A stretch of DNA of 37,227 bases from Nitratidesulfovibrio oxamicus (GTDB lineage Bacteria > Desulfobacterota > Desulfovibrionia > Desulfovibrionales > Desulfovibrionaceae): the NCBI RefSeq assembly GCF_015731765.1, contig NZ_VRYY01000442.1, forward strand, positions 1 through 37,227, in the 5' to 3' direction. A model generated the notes under the pieces. It was not told where the DNA came from and ran no database searches. It was given only the letters and a program-made list of their open reading frames with translations. Position 1 is the first letter of the stretch. Each line of letters begins with the position of its first letter. This document shows, one piece after another, positions 1,614 to 19,486 of this stretch. A program made the position numbers and the translations under genes.

Positions 1614-2297
1614 CTATGTCTGATCTTCGTCCTCGAAATGGCTGTGCTTGGCGTTGACGCCGCGTACGGCGAAAAACACGCTCTCGCCGATGTTGGTGGA
1701 AAGGTCGCCAATGCGTTCGAGCCTGCGGCAGATGATCAGGAACGACAATGCCGCTTCGACCCTTTCGGGGTTGGACTTCATGTACTGCACGACCTTCAGG
1801 GTAAGCTGGCGCAACCCGCAGTCCACGCCCTCGTCCAGTTCGGCCAGCCTGCGCCCCCTGTCGGCATCCATGTCCACCACGCATTGCACCGCCTGATGCA
1901 CCATGTTGCGCACCAGCGGCACGAAGGCCTTGAAGTCTTCGTCGAATGGCAGCGGCGGCAAGGCCACCAGGGGCATGGTGCGTTCCGCGATGTTGGCGGC
2001 CTCGTCGGCCATGCGCTCGATGTCGTTGGCGATGCGCATGGTGGCAAGCACGGTGCGCAGGTCCTGCGCCAATGGCCCTTCTCGGGCCAGAAGGCGCATG
2101 CCCATTTCGTCGATGCAGGTTTCCATGCCGTTGATGGCATGGTCGTGCGACGCGACTGACCATGCTCTGGCTTCGTCGCGCTGGCAGTAGGCTTCGATGC
2201 AGCTGTCGACGGCCTGCTCAACCGTGGCGAGCATGGCCAGCAACTTGTGGCGCAGGGCATCAAGGCGGTCGGTGGTCAGGTTGCGGGCGAGGGCCAT
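1614..2297 (-). CDS. phoU: PhoU-family phosphate signalling protein
   Basis: This 227-residue protein is an all-helical PhoU protein with two tandem PhoU domains. Each domain carries the family metal-binding signature: DIERMADEAANI in the first half and RRLERIGDLSTNIGE in the second. PhoU proteins act in the cytoplasm and down-regulate the Pst transporter and PhoR/PhoB signalling. Residues up to about 115 form the first domain and 120-215 the second. The start at 2297 has a GGAAGGAG sequence 6 bases upstream; the longer frame to 2342 has no such site. No pst or pho genes are adjacent, so this may be a stand-alone PhoU paralogue. The downstream terminator ends it as a single-gene unit. Confidence 0.92.
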   Translation of the reverse strand: MALARNLTTDRLDALRHKLLAMLATVEQAVDSCIEAYCQRDEARAWSVASHDHAINGMETCIDEMGMRLLAREGPLAQDLRTVLATMRIANDIERMADEAANIAERTMPLVALPPLPFDEDFKAFVPLVRNMVHQAVQCVVDMDADRGRRLAELDEGVDCGLRQLTLKVVQYMKSNPERVEAALSFLIICRRLERIGDLSTNIGESVFFAVRGVNAKHSHFEDEDQT

Positions 2298-2505
2298 GGC
2301 GCACTCCTTCCGTTGGGGGGCCGCATGCCGGACGCGGCCCACATGTGCTTTCTTTCACGTGGATCATGCCATCTTTCGCGCCGGGGCGAAACCCCCTGCA
2401 TGCCGTGTTTTACGGACACGTGGGGTTGCCGCCCGCAACGCCGGTGCGCACTGCGACGGGAGCAGCGTCGGGCGTCCCCCAGCCCGGCCACGCCGCTCAA
2501 CGAAA

Positions 2506-2531
2506 GCGCCCCGGCGGGTGGGCCGGGGCGC
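2506..2531 (-). terminator. Rho-independent terminator of greA
   Basis: A perfect 10-bp GC-rich stem (2506-2515 with 2522-2531) with a 6-base loop is followed on the minus strand by TTTCGTT. It lies about 30 bases past the greA stop. Confidence 0.75.
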
Positions 2532-2558
2532 GAGGAATGGCGTATGACGGACCCGGCG

Positions 2559-3041
2559 CTAGCGGCGCGCGCCCTCGAAGGCAATGGAGAGGATTTCGTA
2601 GCTGATGCGGCCACGCGGGGCATCGACCACGATTTCGTCGCCTTCTTCCTTGCCCAGCAGTGCGCGGGCCACGGGCGAAAGGACGGAGATGGTGCCCTGG
2701 GCGTAATCGGCCTCGTCAGGGCCGAGCAGCGTGTAGCGCTTGGCTTCGCCGCTGTCGAGATCCTCGATTTCCACCGTGGCGCCGAACATCACCTTGTCGC
2801 CGGACAGGCTGTCCAGATTGATGACGTTGAACTGGGCCATGCGCGATTCGATGTACGAGATGCGGGCTTCGAGCATGCCCTGCCGTTCGCGGGCGGCGTC
2901 GTACCCGGCGTTTTCTTTCAGATCGCCTTCTTCGCGGGCTTCCTTGATGGCCTGGATGATCGCCGGACGTTCCGACTTCAGGCGTTCCAGTTCCTTCATC
3001 AGTCGATCGTAGCCTTCGGTGGAGATGGGGATGCTGCTCAT
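2559..3041 (-). CDS. greA: Transcription elongation factor GreA
   Basis: This 160-residue protein rescues backtracked RNA polymerase by stimulating transcript cleavage in the secondary channel. The N-terminal coiled coil (about residues 8-75) includes the motif EAREEGDLKENAGYDAARE, whose acidic tip holds the catalytic Asp/Glu pair. The C-terminal FKBP-like domain (about 80-160) contains the GPDEAD segment and the closing GRISYEIL. The length matches the family. The ATG at 3041 is preceded by AAGGA at a good distance, and the longer frame to 3128 adds residues unlike the family. A strong promoter lies at 3162-3190 and a terminator at 2506-2531, so the gene appears monocistronic. Confidence 0.96.
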   Translation of the reverse strand: MSSIPISTEGYDRLMKELERLKSERPAIIQAIKEAREEGDLKENAGYDAARERQGMLEARISYIESRMAQFNVINLDSLSGDKVMFGATVEIEDLDSGEAKRYTLLGPDEADYAQGTISVLSPVARALLGKEEGDEIVVDAPRGRISYEILSIAFEGARR

Positions 3042-3448
3042 GCTCGTTCCTTGAGATGTCTGGGCATGGTCTGTTGCCGGGCAAAAAGAAAGTGTCCCGC
3101 CGACGGGGCAAACCCCGCGCAGCGGCACAGTTCGGTGCCGTCATCCGGCGGCACGTTGCGCAATATAGGGCAGCCGGGCGCGCCGGTCAAGATGTCGAGA
3201 GGCCGCGGCTACCGGCTCGGAGACAGGCGCATGAAGGCCAGGTGGCGAAGGTGTGGGCGATAGCGCGGGGATCGCCGGAGTGTGCGGGGTGCGCGGGGCC
3301 ACATTGCGCCACGCAGGCACGCCGGTCTCGGCTGGTCGGCGGTCCTGGTTGACCATGCACGAATCCTGAGGCATCGTCACAATGGACATTCCCCCAACGC
3401 GCACGGCGTGCGCCTCCCATTGGCCACGCCGCACCCCCGGAGGCCGCC
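3042..3448. other. Intergenic region between greA and the zinc-ribbon gene
   Basis: No gene is seen in this stretch of about 400 bases. It holds the greA promoter on the minus strand, a greA leader of roughly 115 bases, and an otherwise unremarkable segment before the ribosome binding site of the gene at 3449. Confidence 0.5.
3162..3190 (-). promoter_or_regulatory. Sigma70-type promoter for greA
   Basis: Read on the minus strand, TTGACC (3190-3185) and TATATT (3167-3162) are separated by 17 bases. Transcription would start near 3155. Confidence 0.7.
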
Positions 3449-3643
3449 ATGCCCGAATACACCGCCACCCTGACCATTCGCGGTGAAGGTTGCGACTATG
3501 ATCCCGAGGAACACGTGGCCCGCATCCCCTGCGAGAACTGCGGGCACATCAACGAGGTGGAAGTCTGGACGGACGATGCCGGGGCGGCGGACTTTTCCGG
3601 ATTTGCCTGCGAGAATTGCGGGCATTGGAATGGTCCCGGTTAG
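3449..3643 (+). CDS. Small zinc-ribbon protein with two CENCGH motifs
   Basis: This 64-residue acidic protein has two identical CENCGH motifs, at about residues 28-33 and 54-59, separated by about 20 residues. Four cysteines in two CxxC knuckles are the arrangement of a treble-clef or zinc-ribbon fold, so a structural zinc is likely. A further cysteine is at position 15. The ATG follows CCGGAGGCCGCC, a good ribosome binding site. I do not recognise the family. The protein could bind a nucleic acid or a protein partner, but nothing in the neighbourhood shows which. Confidence 0.7.
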   Translation: MPEYTATLTIRGEGCDYDPEEHVARIPCENCGHINEVEVWTDDAGAADFSGFACENCGHWNGPG

Positions 3644-4017
3644 GGGCTGTTTCCCGATAGTTCCTCCGCCCGTTGGCCGACCGGCCCGAAGGGGCGCAGC
3701 GTGCCCGTCGGGAGGGCTTGCGTAGTTTACGGGCACCGGGCGCAGGCCGGTCAAGTTTCACCTGCCATTGCCCTGCTGGCCATGTCTGCGCGCTGGGGTT
3801 CCTGTCCGTAAGGTTCGAAAGCTCGCCAACGACCGGGGCAAGTCTCGCGCTGCGAGCTCGCCCAACGGCAACGGCTGGTGGCATGCCACCGCCCCGTCCG
3901 CCCTGGGCGACACGACTGTCCTGTAACGTACGACTGTCCTGTAACGTACGCCTGTCCTGTATCGCACGACTGGCGGGGCCGCTCTTTCCGTCCATTCCTT
4001 CTGCCACGCCATTACCG
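3644..4017. other. Intergenic region with an 18-bp tandem repeat
   Basis: No gene with a convincing start or recognisable product is seen. The main structure is the tandem repeat at 3913-3966, downstream of the minus-strand gene that ends at 4018. Confidence 0.45.
3913..3966. repeat. Three tandem copies of an 18-bp unit
   Basis: The unit CGACTGTCCTGTAACGTA occurs twice exactly (3913-3930 and 3931-3948), then once with three changes (3949-3966). The start of a fourth copy (CGACTGGC) follows. Confidence 0.9.
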
Positions 4018-5725: not shown

Positions 5726-6078
5726 GGGGGCGCCCTGGTTTCGACGGGGATGTGGAAGCCGGAATTGCAGGCCGAGGCGCCGCTGGCCTCGTAAAAAGCG
5801 GCACCAAAAGTAATTGCCAACAATTACGAATACGCACTGGCTGCCTAATTAGTGGCCACGCCAAACCGATCGACGCCTGATACGTCGGCGAGGTGTAACT
5901 TCATCAGGCTGGCATCCAAGGGCGCTCGCCGCTGCGGGTGTAAGAACTATAGGTGAGCTGGTCTAGGGCCGCCCGGTCGGGGGCCAAGCCCGTGACGACA
6001 ATTGTTCCCGACATAAGCCTGTAGACGTTTCGCGTGGAATGTTCTCGGACGCGGGTTCGATTCCCGCCGCCTCCACCA
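5726..6078 (+). ncRNA. ssrA: tmRNA (transfer-messenger RNA)
   Basis: This one-piece tmRNA of about 353 bases rescues stalled ribosomes and tags the nascent peptide for degradation. The 5' end GGGGGCG pairs with CGCCTCC before the 3' CCA at 6076-6078. The tRNA-like part shows GGTTTCGACGGGG near the 5' end and a T-arm with GGTTCGATTCC near the 3' end. The tag frame at 5816-5848 reads GCC-AAC-AAT-TAC-GAA-TAC-GCA-CTG-GCT-GCC-TAA, giving ANNYEYALAA with alanine as resume codon. The 3' end is the integration site of the island that follows. The mature RNA is intact because the att repeat restores it. Confidence 0.97.
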
Positions 6079-8800: not shown

Positions 8801-9370
8801 TTAGTCCTCGTTCGAATTTTCAATCGCAATCTTGCGGGATTCGGTTTCAATAGCCTTGTTTCTCGGCATGGTGATTCGCAGCACGCCCTTGTTCAACTTG
8901 GCGTTTATGCCTTCCTTGTCTGCATCATCAGGGACATTGAGTACCCGACGGAAGGAACCGTAAGAGCGCTCAATGCGGTAGTACCCCTTTTCTTCTGTTT
9001 TCTCCTCATGCTTCTTTTCGGCAGAGAGAATCAACACATCATCTTTCAGCTCAACAGACAAGTCGTTCTCTTCAATGCCGGGAAGGTCAACTTCAACAAC
9101 GTACTCTTTGTCTGTGCCGTAAATATCGACCTTCGGCTTGATGACAGACTTGCCAAGCACCGGGCTGGCTGCGTCGAGCCAGCGGCGCGGCGAAGGCATT
9201 CCAAAGCCAGAGAACATTGAATCAACCATACGGTCGAGTTCGGCGTGGAAGTGGTCAAGCGGAGAAGCGTATTCCCGTGCTCCCCGTTCCGCCTGCTTAA
9301 CCGGAAGGGTCTTTTCCTGTTCGCTTTCCCTCTTAAACCAGTTCCATGGATTCAGCTTAGAAACCATCAT
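8801..9370 (-). CDS. Small heat-shock protein (Hsp20 family)
   Basis: This 189-residue chaperone holds unfolding proteins. The alpha-crystallin domain spans about residues 80-175. It begins KPKVDIYGTDKEYVVEVDLPG, continues with DLSVELKDDVLILSAEKK, and ends with the conserved LNKGVLRITMPR. The N-terminal arm (1-78) is hydrophobic and aromatic (NPWNWFKR), typical of bacterial class A small heat-shock proteins. Its start (ATG-ATG) follows AAGGAGGACGCT. It is the only minus-strand gene in the island and is visibly richer in A and T than its neighbours, so it may be a separately acquired cargo gene. A promoter-like sequence is at 9412-9439. Confidence 0.94.
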   Translation of the reverse strand: MMVSKLNPWNWFKRESEQEKTLPVKQAERGAREYASPLDHFHAELDRMVDSMFSGFGMPSPRRWLDAASPVLGKSVIKPKVDIYGTDKEYVVEVDLPGIEENDLSVELKDDVLILSAEKKHEEKTEEKGYYRIERSYGSFRRVLNVPDDADKEGINAKLNKGVLRITMPRNKAIETESRKIAIENSNED

Positions 9371-13986: not shown

Positions 13987-14035
13987 ACGGCCCATCCTGC
14001 CCGCCTCGCGTGGTCCCATACCCACACGACGCACA

Positions 14036-14091
14036 ACGACGGCCCCTCCACATGTCACCCACTCAAGGGCGGCGCATGGAGGGGCCGTCGT
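14036..14091. repeat. Long hairpin with a 15-bp perfect stem
   Basis: ACGACGGCCCCTCCA (14036-14050) is the exact reverse complement of 14077-14091, with a 26-base loop. No T tract follows on either strand, so it is not a typical terminator. Confidence 0.85.
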
Positions 14092-14484
14092 CGGTCGTGC
14101 GGGGCTATCGGCTCTGCAAACGGAAGATGCCCGTTAGATCAGGACTGACAAGGAACTCGTGGGAACAACGGTCGCGTTTCCTCACCGCTGTGATCACCGG
14201 CTTTTCGGTCCGATGGAGACACCCGGCTTGCCAAGGACACTGTCCACTACCCGGCGGACATCCCCCAGGCATCACCTGCCGGAAGGGTTTGTCTCGGCAC
14301 AGCGACAGGCCCCGTCGTGCTTCTCGCGGATAATCCGTTCAAGGATCGTCGATCTACCGTTTCGGATGGCATCTGCCTTGATGTCGACTGCCGTGTAGCC
14401 AAAGCAGTAGCAGATTAGTTCGGCGTCCAGACTCTTACCCCTTGGCTATGCGCTTGCGTGGGAGGCCGTGCCCCTGTGAGCATC

Positions 14485-14635
14485 GGCTGACTTGAGGAGG
14501 AGGAGGAGGAGGAGGATGGTGGTGGCCGTCGCGGGTCGGCAGGGTGTGACCAGCCCACGGCTAGGGACTCCCCTCCTGCCAGTCGGCGTGGTCAACATCG
14601 ACCCTCCGCCATCATCCCCCCTCCTCAAGTCAGCC
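14485..14635. repeat. Long-range inverted repeat around a GAG run
   Basis: GGCTGACTTGAGGAGG (14485-14500) is the exact reverse complement of 14620-14635. The enclosed 119 bases include the GAG triplet run. Confidence 0.8.
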
Positions 14636-14708
14636 GGTAACACAGCGCCGAGACCGCTTCAACACCCGCGCAGGGGTGTCCGCAGTGTGGACGTCTTCGC
14701 TGAAAGGA

Positions 14709-14764
14709 GCGACTACGCCGCGCCGGACAAGGGGGGGGGTATGTCAGTCGCGCGGCGTAGTCGC
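14709..14764. repeat. Hairpin with a 15-bp perfect stem and a G-run loop
   Basis: GCGACTACGCCGCGC (14709-14723) is the exact reverse complement of 14750-14764. The 26-base loop contains nine consecutive G. Confidence 0.85.
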
Positions 14765-14855
14765 AGGCCAGAGGAGACCTACACCATTCTCTTAATGTAG
14801 CGTCGGGCCTGAATCAAGACCTCATGACCAACCCCTGGGTTCCCATTCCGCCGTT

Positions 14856-14901
14856 CCCCTTCCCGCTCCCCTTCCCGCGCCCCTTCCCGCGCCCCTGCCC
14901 C
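14856..14901. repeat. 12-bp C-rich tandem repeat
   Basis: CCCCTTCCCGCT, CCCCTTCCCGCG and CCCCTTCCCGCG follow one another from 14856 to 14891, with a degenerate CCCCTGCCCC after them. Confidence 0.85.
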
Positions 14902-14940
14902 TACTAGGCTGCGCGGCCAGAACATCGACACCACAACGCC

Positions 14941-14975
14941 AAGGCCCACTGGAGATCATCGCTCCGGTGGGCCTT
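14941..14975 (+). promoter_or_regulatory. Hairpin leader of the first antirepressor gene
   Basis: The 14-base arms 14941-14954 and 14962-14975 form a stem with one G-U pair around the loop ATCATCG. It lies 48 bases before the gene's ATG. The same hairpin, loop and ribosome binding site occur before the second antirepressor gene. It lacks a T tract. Confidence 0.7.
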
Positions 14976-15022
14976 CGTGCGTTCAGCACCAAGCAATCAC
15001 AACACCACAAGGAGAAGACATC

Positions 15023-15799
15023 ATGACCACCACCTCCTAGAACACCCCCGTCATCTTCAGCAACCCCGACCTGTTCTCCGGCAACCTCCGCGTCATCATG
15101 CAGGGTGACGATCCGTGGTTCGTGGCGAAGGATGTGTGCGATGCGCTCGACCTCCACACCACGAACATCAACACGGTCCTCGATGCGGATGAGATAATGA
15201 CCTTACACTATAAGGTCATTGGCGACGAACCCAAGCGCGGCAACCCCAACCGCCTCCTCATCAACGAGTCCGGCCTGTACTCCCTCATCCTCCGCTCCCG
15301 CAAACCCGAAGCCCTGCGCTTCAAGAAGTGGGTCACCGCCGAAGTCCTGCCCTCCATCAGGAAGACCGGCGGCTACATCGTCGCCCGCCCGGACGAATCC
15401 CCCGAAGCCATCCTGGCGCGGGCCGTGCTCGTGGCGCAGGACACCATCGAGCGGATGAAGGCCAAGACAGAGGCTCTGGAAGCGGAGGTCAAGGAACTTG
15501 CCCCGAAGGCCGAGACCTACGATGCCGTGGTGGCCCAGCGCATGATGAAGGTTCATGACTTCGCCCGCCGTCTGCACGGGGTGAACTCCAACCGTACCAA
15601 GGATGACCTCCGTCGGCTCGGCTACCTGCACCGCCAGTGGGGTCCGTACCGCGTGTACGCCCAGTACCGCGACAAGTTCTTCGTGGAGAAGGTGAACGAC
15701 CAGTACGGCACCGTGGACATCTACGTCACCGACGCCGGAAAGCAGCTCATGACCCGTCTGTACAACGAGGGGAAACTCACCATGCGGGTGGGGTTCTAA
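15023..15799 (+). pseudogene. BRO-N/KilAC antirepressor with an amber codon at codon 6
   Basis: The ATG at 15023 has the strong leader AAGGAGAAGACATC and starts MTTTS, then TAG (15038-15040). The frame then continues as NTPVIFSNPDLFSGNLRVIM and on to a full antirepressor. The BRO-N domain covers about residues 6-115 (DPWFVAKDVCDALDL, SGLYSLILRSRKPEA). A linker helix and the KilAC (ANT) DNA-binding domain follow (about 155-258; MMKVHDFARRL). Restart at the internal ATG 15098 would remove the first strand of BRO-N and has no ribosome binding site. The gene is therefore probably silent unless the amber codon is read through. Such proteins normally antagonise a phage repressor. Confidence 0.82.
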
Positions 15800-15834
15800 T
15801 CCACGACAACGAAAACGCCGACAGCAACGGCACG

Positions 15835-15869
15835 AAGGCCCGCTGGAGATCATCGCTCCGGTGGGCCTT
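15835..15869 (+). promoter_or_regulatory. Hairpin leader of the second antirepressor gene
   Basis: The arms 15835-15848 and 15856-15869 form the same 14-bp stem and identical loop as at 14941-14975. One sequence change, A to G in the left arm, keeps pairing by replacing A-U with G-U. It lies 59 bases before the ATG at 15929. Confidence 0.7.
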
Positions 15870-15928
15870 CATGCGTTCAAACCAACCAACTCCCCATCAC
15901 AGCAATACTACCACAAGGAGAAGACATC

Positions 15929-16747
15929 ATGACCACCCCCACCCTCACCCCCGTCCGCCACGAAGAGATCGCCATCTGCAACGCCACCATCCTCGCCGCT
16001 GTCACCTCCGATGACCGCTGCTACTTCTCGCCCCGCCATGTCTGCGGTGCGCTGGGCATCACTTGGCAGGGCCAGCTTGAAAAGATCAAGGCAGACCCGG
16101 TGCTTGCCAAGGGTGTAACGAATATCGTGACGCCTTCCGCTGGCGGTCCCCAGACCACCCTCATGCTCCCCATCGAGTTCCTGTCTGGCTGGCTCTTCAC
16201 CATCAAGAAGGTCCGCCCCGAAGTGCAGGACAAGCTGAACGTCTTCCGGGCCGAAGGCTTCGTTGCCCTTGATGCGTGGTTCCGCAAGGGGCTGCGTCAT
16301 TCACCCACCGTGGCCGACATGCTGTCGAACCCCGACTTCGCCATCGAACTCCTGACCAAGTTCAAGGAGGAGCAGGAGGCCCGCCGTCGTGCCGAAGTCA
16401 ACGCCCGTGACCTCGGGGAGCACAACCGCATGCTGGCGGCCCAGGTGCGGGCGACTGAAACGGTCCTCGACGAACTGGACGACGTGATTACCGAGCACCT
16501 CCGCTACGTCACTGTGGATAAGTGGCGGGCGCTCAACCAGATGTACCTGCGTCAGGGCGAGAAGGTGCGCCTTGGCAAGCGGGCCTCGGAACTCTGCCGT
16601 CAGCATGGTCACCCCATTGGCAAGGAGCCGCGTGTCATCCACACCGCCTTCGGGACCAAGGACCGCGAGTTGAACGTCTACCCGCTGCACATCCTGAATC
16701 AGGCCGGTCGTGAGATGGGCCTCAAGGTGATCATGGAGGAGGTCTAA
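15929..16747 (+). CDS. Phage antirepressor, P22 AR N-terminal type
   Basis: This 272-residue protein has an N-terminal domain (about 15-115) matching the P22 antirepressor N-terminal family: YFSPRHVCGALGI, then LPIEFLSGWLFTI. A charged coiled coil follows (about 130-175; KFKEEQEARRRAEVNARDLG). The C-terminal domain (about 180-270) with VTVDKWRALNQMYLRQGEKV and a closing NVYPLHILNQAGR region is probably DNA- or partner-binding. It would inactivate a phage repressor and favour excision or lytic genes. The start has the same AAGGAGAAGACATC leader as the preceding gene. The first and second antirepressors are otherwise different in sequence, so only the leader was shared or duplicated. Confidence 0.87.
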   Translation: MTTPTLTPVRHEEIAICNATILAAVTSDDRCYFSPRHVCGALGITWQGQLEKIKADPVLAKGVTNIVTPSAGGPQTTLMLPIEFLSGWLFTIKKVRPEVQDKLNVFRAEGFVALDAWFRKGLRHSPTVADMLSNPDFAIELLTKFKEEQEARRRAEVNARDLGEHNRMLAAQVRATETVLDELDDVITEHLRYVTVDKWRALNQMYLRQGEKVRLGKRASELCRQHGHPIGKEPRVIHTAFGTKDRELNVYPLHILNQAGREMGLKVIMEEV

Positions 16748-16749
16748 CC

Positions 16750-17001
16750 ATGAAGGTCACCATCATCCACGAAGCTGGCTACGAAGCCGCTCTCCTCGGG
16801 ATCGGTCTGTCGTTCGGCCTGACCTCCGACATCAGCGCCCACGACTTCATCTGGGACAACGCGGACCTGTGGGACCGCATGGAGAAACGGGCCAAGGGGT
16901 TGCGGGCGACGTCGGGAGGCGCTATCAATGAATTCCTTGGTCTTCCTCTCGCATGCGACCACATCGCCCCTGTCCCGCCCCAATGCCCTCCCCGGTGCTA
17001 G
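16750..17001 (+). CDS. Small phage-type protein after the antirepressor
   Basis: The 83-residue product starts 2 bases after the antirepressor stop, with GGAGGAGG inside that gene's end as ribosome binding site, so the two are translationally coupled. The N-terminal 65 residues (MKVTIIHEAGYEAALLGIGL to AINEFLGL) look like a family of small phage proteins with an AGYxxALLGL motif, function unknown. The last 18 residues are Pro/Cys-rich and are encoded by the left arm and loop of a terminator hairpin. The natural C-terminus was probably near residue 65, and the tail may be a frameshifted or replaced end. Confidence 0.6.
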   Translation: MKVTIIHEAGYEAALLGIGLSFGLTSDISAHDFIWDNADLWDRMEKRAKGLRATSGGAINEFLGLPLACDHIAPVPPQCPPRC

Positions 17002-17034
17002 TGGATGTGGGGGTGATGTGGTCGCTCCTTTTTT
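16955..17034 (+). terminator. Terminator of the antirepressor operon
   Basis: GCGACCACATC (16955-16965) pairs exactly with 17015-17025, and the stem extends about 5 further pairs inward with a G-U. TCCTTTTTT follows. The left arm lies inside the upstream reading frame. Confidence 0.85.
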
Positions 17035-18016: not shown

Positions 18017-18315
18017 GGGGGCCAGAAGACCGGCAAGGGGAAGGGCAAGAAAAGAGCGACCACGCTGCCGGAGGGGTTTCGGCATACGTGGTCGCCAGCA
18101 TTGGGGAGATCAGGTAGGAAGTCATTAAGTCGCCCCCTGCCAGCAGGCAAGACCCTCAAGTCGACTTTTTGTGCGGGGGCGTCGTCTTCGTCGGCTTCAT
18201 AGCCCCCCCCGGATGTTCTGACGCAAAAATCTGAAAGCCCATCTCACCCACCGACCGGGGCACATTCCCCCCGTACCGGGGTGGTCACAATCCATACGAT
18301 CGGGGCCGCTACCAG

Positions 18316-18430
18316 CCCACCGTAACACCGTGGGCCGTTTTTCATCGAAGAACGCCCTTCCCCGCCGCAGTCTGACCTTTGGCCCATCCGTCTCACGTTC
18401 CGTCGCTCTCAGTCCATCCTCGTGCGTTGC
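18316..18430. repeat. Dispersed repeat family 2, copy C
   Basis: CCGTGGGCCGTTTTTC near the left end and CGCTCTCAGTCCATCCTCGTG near the right end match copies A and B. The minus-strand translation shows THEDGLRAT and RPTVLRW, similar to THEDGRRAT and RPAVTRW on the minus strand of copy A. Confidence 0.75.
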
Positions 18431-18662
18431 CGGGGCCGGGGTGCTCCTCATACATAGAGGCGACCACGGATCACCGCTGACTGGGGCGACGACCACCACT
18501 CTCCAGACGGCCATCATAGGCGAGTCGGACGATCAGCGGGGATGATAGTTGTCGCCATTGTTCATATTTGCCGTTCGACAATGTGTCATCCTAGGGTAGA
18601 CCACAAGTCGACACCTTGCCCTGACAATCTTTCCGTCAGGGTAGAGTCGTTTTTCATTTTTA

Positions 18663-19290: not shown

Positions 19291-19464
19291 GTCGACATGC
19301 CCTTCACGGTTGGGATGTAGCACGTCCCGTTTGTTGGCTACAGTTTTTGTCTGACAAACGGCTTGACCTCACTTGCTCCTGTTACAAAAACTTGCTACAT
19401 GCCTCCCAAGCGCAACACGCCTAACTACCTAAAAAGGTAAGAGTCTTTCTTGGAGTGGCTAGAA
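19291..19464. other. Right end of the island before attR, with inverted repeats
   Basis: No gene is seen. AGTTTTTGT (19342-19350) and ACAAAAACT (19384-19392) form a 9-bp inverted repeat, and CGTTTGT/ACAAACG pair at 19328-19360. These could be integrase arm-type sites or binding sites of an excisionase, which is an inference from position only. Confidence 0.4.
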
Positions 19465-19486
19465 TCCCGCCGCCTCCACCAATTTC
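19465..19486 (+). repeat. attR: 22-bp copy of the ssrA 3' end
   Basis: The sequence is identical to 6062-6083. It carries the last part of the ssrA acceptor stem, CCA and flank, with no other ssrA sequence before it. Confidence 0.93.

Follow-up and report, generated by a model that had tools for sequence, protein, structure and literature searches.

The nearest studied parallel to the locus described here is the isrK-orf45-anrP unit of Gifsy-1, in which a Rho-independent terminator lies directly 5' of the antirepressor gene and partial read-through gives the antirepressor mRNA (PMC4825925). In that unit, isrK has its own promoter and yields a trans-acting short RNA, and an upstream ORF is coupled (PMC4825925). 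The C4 RNA of P1/P7-type immI regions (RF01695) is likewise a structured RNA in an antirepressor leader. In a moron-type phage cassette, a gene lies between a promoter and a terminator of its own. We analysed a 37,227-nt stretch of a draft genome (hereafter the window), which belongs to the same genus as Desulfovibrio sp. A2 (A2) and Nitratidesulfovibrio liaohensis XJ01 and carries two antirepressor genes, each placed behind a terminator-type hairpin. The promoter, the trans-acting short RNA and the coupled ORF of isrK, however, were not found in the window. Specifically, an Rfam search of the window returned the tmRNA only; the isrK model (RF01394) gave no match there, nor did any other antirepressor-linked family, and the C4 model gave none at the gathering score or up to E 2. 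The loci of 20 relatives were equally free of matches to C4, isrK or other antirepressor-linked families, and C4 has no match in the Desulfovibrionaceae loci examined; an antisense complement to the shared leader was not found either. As in moron cassettes, the antirepressor genes are parted by terminators and vary as units, but no promoter was recognised between terminator and start codon: a scan that covers the sigma-70-like type only found none between 14976 and 15929, and the own promoter that marks a moron was not seen.

The island carrying the two genes is bounded by the tmRNA gene (5726-6078) and, at 19457-19486, by a 30-bp direct repeat of the tmRNA 3' end; besides the antirepressor genes, Pfam assigns to it integrases, a T7 gp14-like gene and a serine resolvase. 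It is a degraded bacterial prophage, and the antirepressors are lysogeny-switch genes. An Hsp20-like heat-shock gene (8820-9370, minus strand) also apparently lies within the island, as judged by eye. The antirepressor unit is on the plus strand and consists, in order, of hairpin 1, a Bro-N/KilAC gene, hairpin 2, a P22_AR_N gene, an 83-aa ORF and a third terminator. Upstream of it, the stretch between the gp14-like gene and hairpin 1 (13990-14780) is without clear genes and holds three long-armed inverted repeats, which are kept in A2. A possible proline-rich ORF of 27 aa (MTNPWVPIPPFPFPLPFPRPFPRPCPY; 14824-14907, plus strand) ends 33 nt before hairpin 1; it is conserved in A2, where it is four residues shorter and has a shorter repeat.

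Hairpin 1 with its tail CGTGCGTTC (14941-14984) has a 14-bp stem and is followed by leader copy 1, ACCACAAGGAGAAGACATCATGACCACCACCTCC (15004-15037), which includes the Shine-Dalgarno sequence AAGGAG, and by the Bro-N plus ANT/KilAC gene (15023-15799; Pfam PF02498 and PF03374). Hairpin 2 with its tail CATGCGTTC (15835-15878) has a stem of 14-15 bp; leader copy 2, ACCACAAGGAGAAGACATCATGACCACCCCCACC (15910-15943), was recognised by alignment as a direct repeat of the first, and the P22_AR_N antirepressor gene (15929-16747; PF10547) is intact. The 83-aa ORF (16750-17001), without a Pfam match, lies directly 3' of the P22-type gene. The unit is closed by the third terminator (16955-17034), a long inverted repeat GCGACCACATC..GATGTGGTCGC followed by six T; this is a real T run, and the 3' part of the structure was also picked up by the terminator scan.

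The two genes differ in their state. Read from the shared ATG (15023), the Bro-N frame is interrupted at codon 6 by an in-frame TAG (15038-15040); A2 has CAG there and one extra ACC codon. The TAG is either a nonsense allele or a sequencing error, or translation starts at the internal ATG 15098, which leaves a present ORF of 15098-15799 with a truncated Bro-N domain. For the P22-type gene, 15 synonymous and 0 nonsynonymous changed codons were counted in 150 in comparison with A2, a pattern indicative of purifying selection outside a hypervariable core, so this gene must at times be expressed. The core itself comprises about 39 codons of P22_AR_N (window 16020-16160; contig C477 of the same genome, 9860-10130; related locus L238, 5000-5333) and has 13-16 nonsynonymous changed codons versus 0-2 in the 41 flanking codons compared, which suggests diversification or swapping of a specificity segment.

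Comparison of the two upstream regions reveals two direct repeats. The hairpins, AAGGCCCACTGGAG-ATCATCG-CTCCGGTGGGCCTT (14941-14975) and AAGGCCCGCTGGAG-ATCATCG-CTCCGGTGGGCCTT (15835-15869), form a 45-nt repeat of 96% identity, and the leader ACCACAAGGAGAAGACATCATGACCACC forms a second one of 34 nt and 94% identity, inside which 25 nt are identical. Hence the shared hairpin and leader, the identical loop and the stem change that keeps pairing through G-U (an A/G difference between the two hairpins), all noticed in the initial annotation, are borne out. The similar spacer that it also described is not: hairpin 1 lies 47 nt 5' of the original Bro-N ATG and hairpin 2 lies 59 nt 5' of the P22-type ATG, and the spacers are clearly different and gene-specific. 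The coding parts had further been called unrelated, and their N-terminal domains are indeed very different, but hhalign gives a weak sign of distant kinship between Bro-N and P22_AR_N (E 3e-4, probability 38%). Each hairpin folds at about -30 kcal/mol (-30.3 for hairpin 1), with z of about -6 against dinucleotide shuffles, and 0 of 200 shuffles were as stable as either. The exact 15-mer of loop and stem occurs at just two sites in the 4.0-Mb genome, which are these hairpins, and in eight genomes of the genus the leader pattern ACCACAAGGAGAA..ATG marks only four sites, each the start of an antirepressor gene.

The hairpins are not peculiar to antirepressors. Hairpins with the 3' tail GGGCCTTCRTGCGTT are found genus-wide on many different stems; the pattern AAGGCCC..GGGCCTT-N-GCGTT is matched in each of the 8 genus genomes and nowhere in a reversed control. 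Of 33 distinct contexts of the 13-mer tail GCCTTCRTGCGTT, 29 have it closing a stem of 8 bp or more, versus 12 of 141 for any GCCTT. One member, at locus L255, has the identical tail, CCTTCGTGCGTT, on a different stem 43 nt 3' of 5S rRNA, and at two further loci (L259 and L260) a tail-bearing hairpin is likewise placed just 3' of 5S rRNA. This is the spot where an rRNA-operon terminator is expected, and from this position we infer termination there. Because tail-bearing hairpins are genus-wide and stand 3' of 5S rRNA, the antirepressor hairpins appear to be members of a genus-wide terminator-type class. They resemble the rRNA-operon intrinsic terminators of the same genus in a stable, GC-rich perfect stem of the Rho-independent type (14-15 bp, -30 kcal/mol), in the tail, and in a position behind a transcription unit, hairpin 2 beginning 35 nt after the Bro stop codon. 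They differ in standing before antirepressor genes as two copies that were duplicated along with a translation leader, and in the poor U tract of the window copies (CTTCGTGCGTTC), the tail being shared with the rRNA-operon relatives. Owing to this poor U tract, a simple terminator scan called neither of the window hairpins. The initial annotation had held that its proposal would fall if the hairpin worked only as an ordinary terminator of the preceding transcript; a class that is genus-wide and closes rRNA operons comes close to this, and the poor U tract is where the match falls short.

We favour, with a probability of roughly 0.6, the reading that a host-style terminator and a ribosome-binding leader were duplicated and insulate the two antirepressor genes, which would be expressed by read-through. 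On this reading, each gene stands behind one copy of a module that combines an intrinsic terminator hairpin of host style with a strong ribosome-binding leader and the opening codons. Transcription arriving from upstream would be ended or attenuated at the hairpins, and each antirepressor would thereby be insulated and kept low until polymerase reads through, as might happen under phage antitermination; the shared leader would be what is left of a duplication of tandem antirepressor cassettes or of recombination between them. Both termination at the window hairpins and read-through as the route of expression are what we infer. Besides the poor U tract, two points speak against the terminator reading: with no sigma-70-like promoter seen between hairpin and start codon, complete termination would shut off a gene kept by selection, and the stems are more alike within a genus than between genera, which is unexpected for plain independent terminators.

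Further copies bear on the nature of the hairpin. A2 has the same arrangement of hairpin, leader and antirepressor, split over two contigs; its Bro hairpin is identical to the window copy, whereas in the P22-type one the loop is five bases long (CAACC) and a stem change from C to T keeps pairing through G-U. A third stem copy in the same genome as the window, on contig C477, lies 3' of a related gp14-like gene and has the loop AGCGA. In the five copies compared, 70 of 70 stem pairs are standard; two changes are one-sided, kept through G-U, and none is two-sided, and the loops differ. A stem that is kept while the loop varies points to an RNA hairpin whose loop is free to change, although this rests on few changes. 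The duplication, the hairpin class with its rRNA-operon relatives, and a pairing constraint with a free loop are direct observations. The free loop and kept pairing favour the terminator reading, since they fit an RNA hairpin better than a DNA operator. Two regulatory genes with a 14-bp inverted repeat close by might suggest such an operator, bound by a repressor or by the antirepressors themselves, but we regard it as highly improbable: the spacing of the half-sites shifts from 7 to 5 bp, the stem substitutions break the DNA symmetry and keep the RNA pairing via G-U, and the same class stands 3' of 5S rRNA.

The leaders are 94.6% and 91.7% identical for the same gene across strains (92-95% as summarised), and 67.6-73.5% identical between different genes (68-74%). 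The leaders group by gene and not by strain, which places the duplication before the window and A2 islands split. Both leaders descend from one duplicated module that is found in A2 too, and the claim of a leader module common to different antirepressor genes holds in two strains, with an analogous pair in another genus.

This last case is a genome of another genus of the same family (G065), in which a Bro-N and a P22_AR_N gene again form a tandem, each behind a hairpin. Its hairpin stem, AAGGCTGG..CCAGCCTT, is found at just these two sites in the 3.6-Mb genome, and the hairpins carry real T runs, CCTTTTTT and CCTTTTC (T6 and TTTTC), which speaks for the terminator reading. The stem sequence differs from that of the window, so that the pair is alike within a genus and unlike between genera. 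Independent duplication in each lineage, copying between the sites, or a common recognising factor would explain this pattern; it is one case, too few to choose among the three. The uniqueness of this stem pair in its genome and its unlikeness to the window's suggest copying within the element, as would be expected if hairpin and leader served as homology arms for the duplication, exchange or homogenisation of cassettes, with any terminator activity secondary. The A2 Bro gene, which has the same leader and C-terminal region and a different segment in the middle of Bro-N, and the truncated antirepressor fragments scattered round related islands agree with this. We nevertheless consider such a recombination module rather unlikely, as in the other genus the similarity stops at the hairpin, coding breakpoints also lie inside the genes, away from the leader, and no swap was observed whose two joints both lie in the leader. 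Also noted was a repeat that is noncoding, about 230 bp long and 73-76% identical (window 18207-18440; C477 9624-9857; L238 5322-5570; L135 3583-3812); it adjoins a truncated antirepressor fragment in three relatives and lies near serine recombinase genes.

We also surveyed viral contigs. The exact loop-stem 15-mer was found in 64 stretches, none of which has the stem extension among the contexts listed; these are consistent with chance and were rejected as true relatives. The stem pattern occurs in 4 stretches, all in other contexts, one of which (L154) is followed by TTTTCCTTTTT and looks like an ordinary terminator. A strong hairpin excess was present 5' of Bro genes in 15% of 66 viral cases versus 13% of 319 other ORFs; the median shift is small (one-sided Mann-Whitney p 0.006, for loci that are not independent), and a general strong antirepressor hairpin was rejected for these viral cases. 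Nor is an upstream region repeated within the locus commoner for antirepressors (14/92) than for other ORFs (84/437). Most such repeats are short chance matches, with contig L163 as a striking exception.

L163 (IMGVR_UViG_3300031541_000072), a viral contig unrelated to the window, has five antirepressor-type genes in tandem at 2034-3978, in the order Rha, Bro-N/KilAC, Bro-N, Bro-N/KilAC and KilA-N. A leader of about 200 nt, including a T-run hairpin, is common to three of the five with 88-91% identity, and Rfam reports the C4 antisense RNA above threshold in two of its copies. By eye, CCTACTG in the C4 part complements the ribosome-binding stretch CAGTAGG of each of the three genes, and a 7-bp stem covaries, its sequence changing from copy to copy with the pairing kept in each (GGTCAAT/ATTGACC, CTGCTAG/CTAGCAG, GTGCTAA/TTAGCAC). 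No relatives of this leader were found in the phage collection, and a 21-mer of its start region occurs in that contig only among viral contigs. As the L163 leader holds C4, coordinated control through a shared leader is plausible by analogy for tandem antirepressors generally, via a known RNA that the window lacks.

Coordinated post-transcriptional control had been the initial proposal for the window, where a protein, RNase III or a trans-acting RNA would recognise hairpin or leader and control both antirepressors. The L163 array gives it a precedent elsewhere, and the leader is confined to these antirepressor genes in the genus genomes, with the stem pairing kept. In the window, however, neither a factor bound to the loop nor an antisense RNA finds support. 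Recognition of the loop by a protein or other factor is at odds with a loop whose sequence and length vary between copies (ATCATCG, CAACC, AGCGA), and RNA binding to the leader with a best island duplex of -24.0 kcal/mol, no better than the -20.5 to -28.7 kcal/mol reached by shuffled leaders. Together with a hairpin class that is not tied to antirepressors and the lack of antirepressor-linked Rfam matches in the window and the 20 relatives' loci, this makes such control quite improbable here.

Taken together, these results correct a tempting reading, since a hairpin that two regulatory genes have in common can be a terminator of host style that was duplicated. Tentatively, and with more doubt than confidence, the matched hairpins of tandem antirepressors in the Desulfovibrionaceae might evolve in concert within each island, serving a common trans-acting factor or as joints for cassette swapping. 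If so, the C4 array of L163 would offer a parallel, in which several antirepressors are coordinated through the leaders they share. Arrays of tandem antirepressors with a common leader, one of them with C4, offer a place to study joint control by phages and the exchange of specificity parts.
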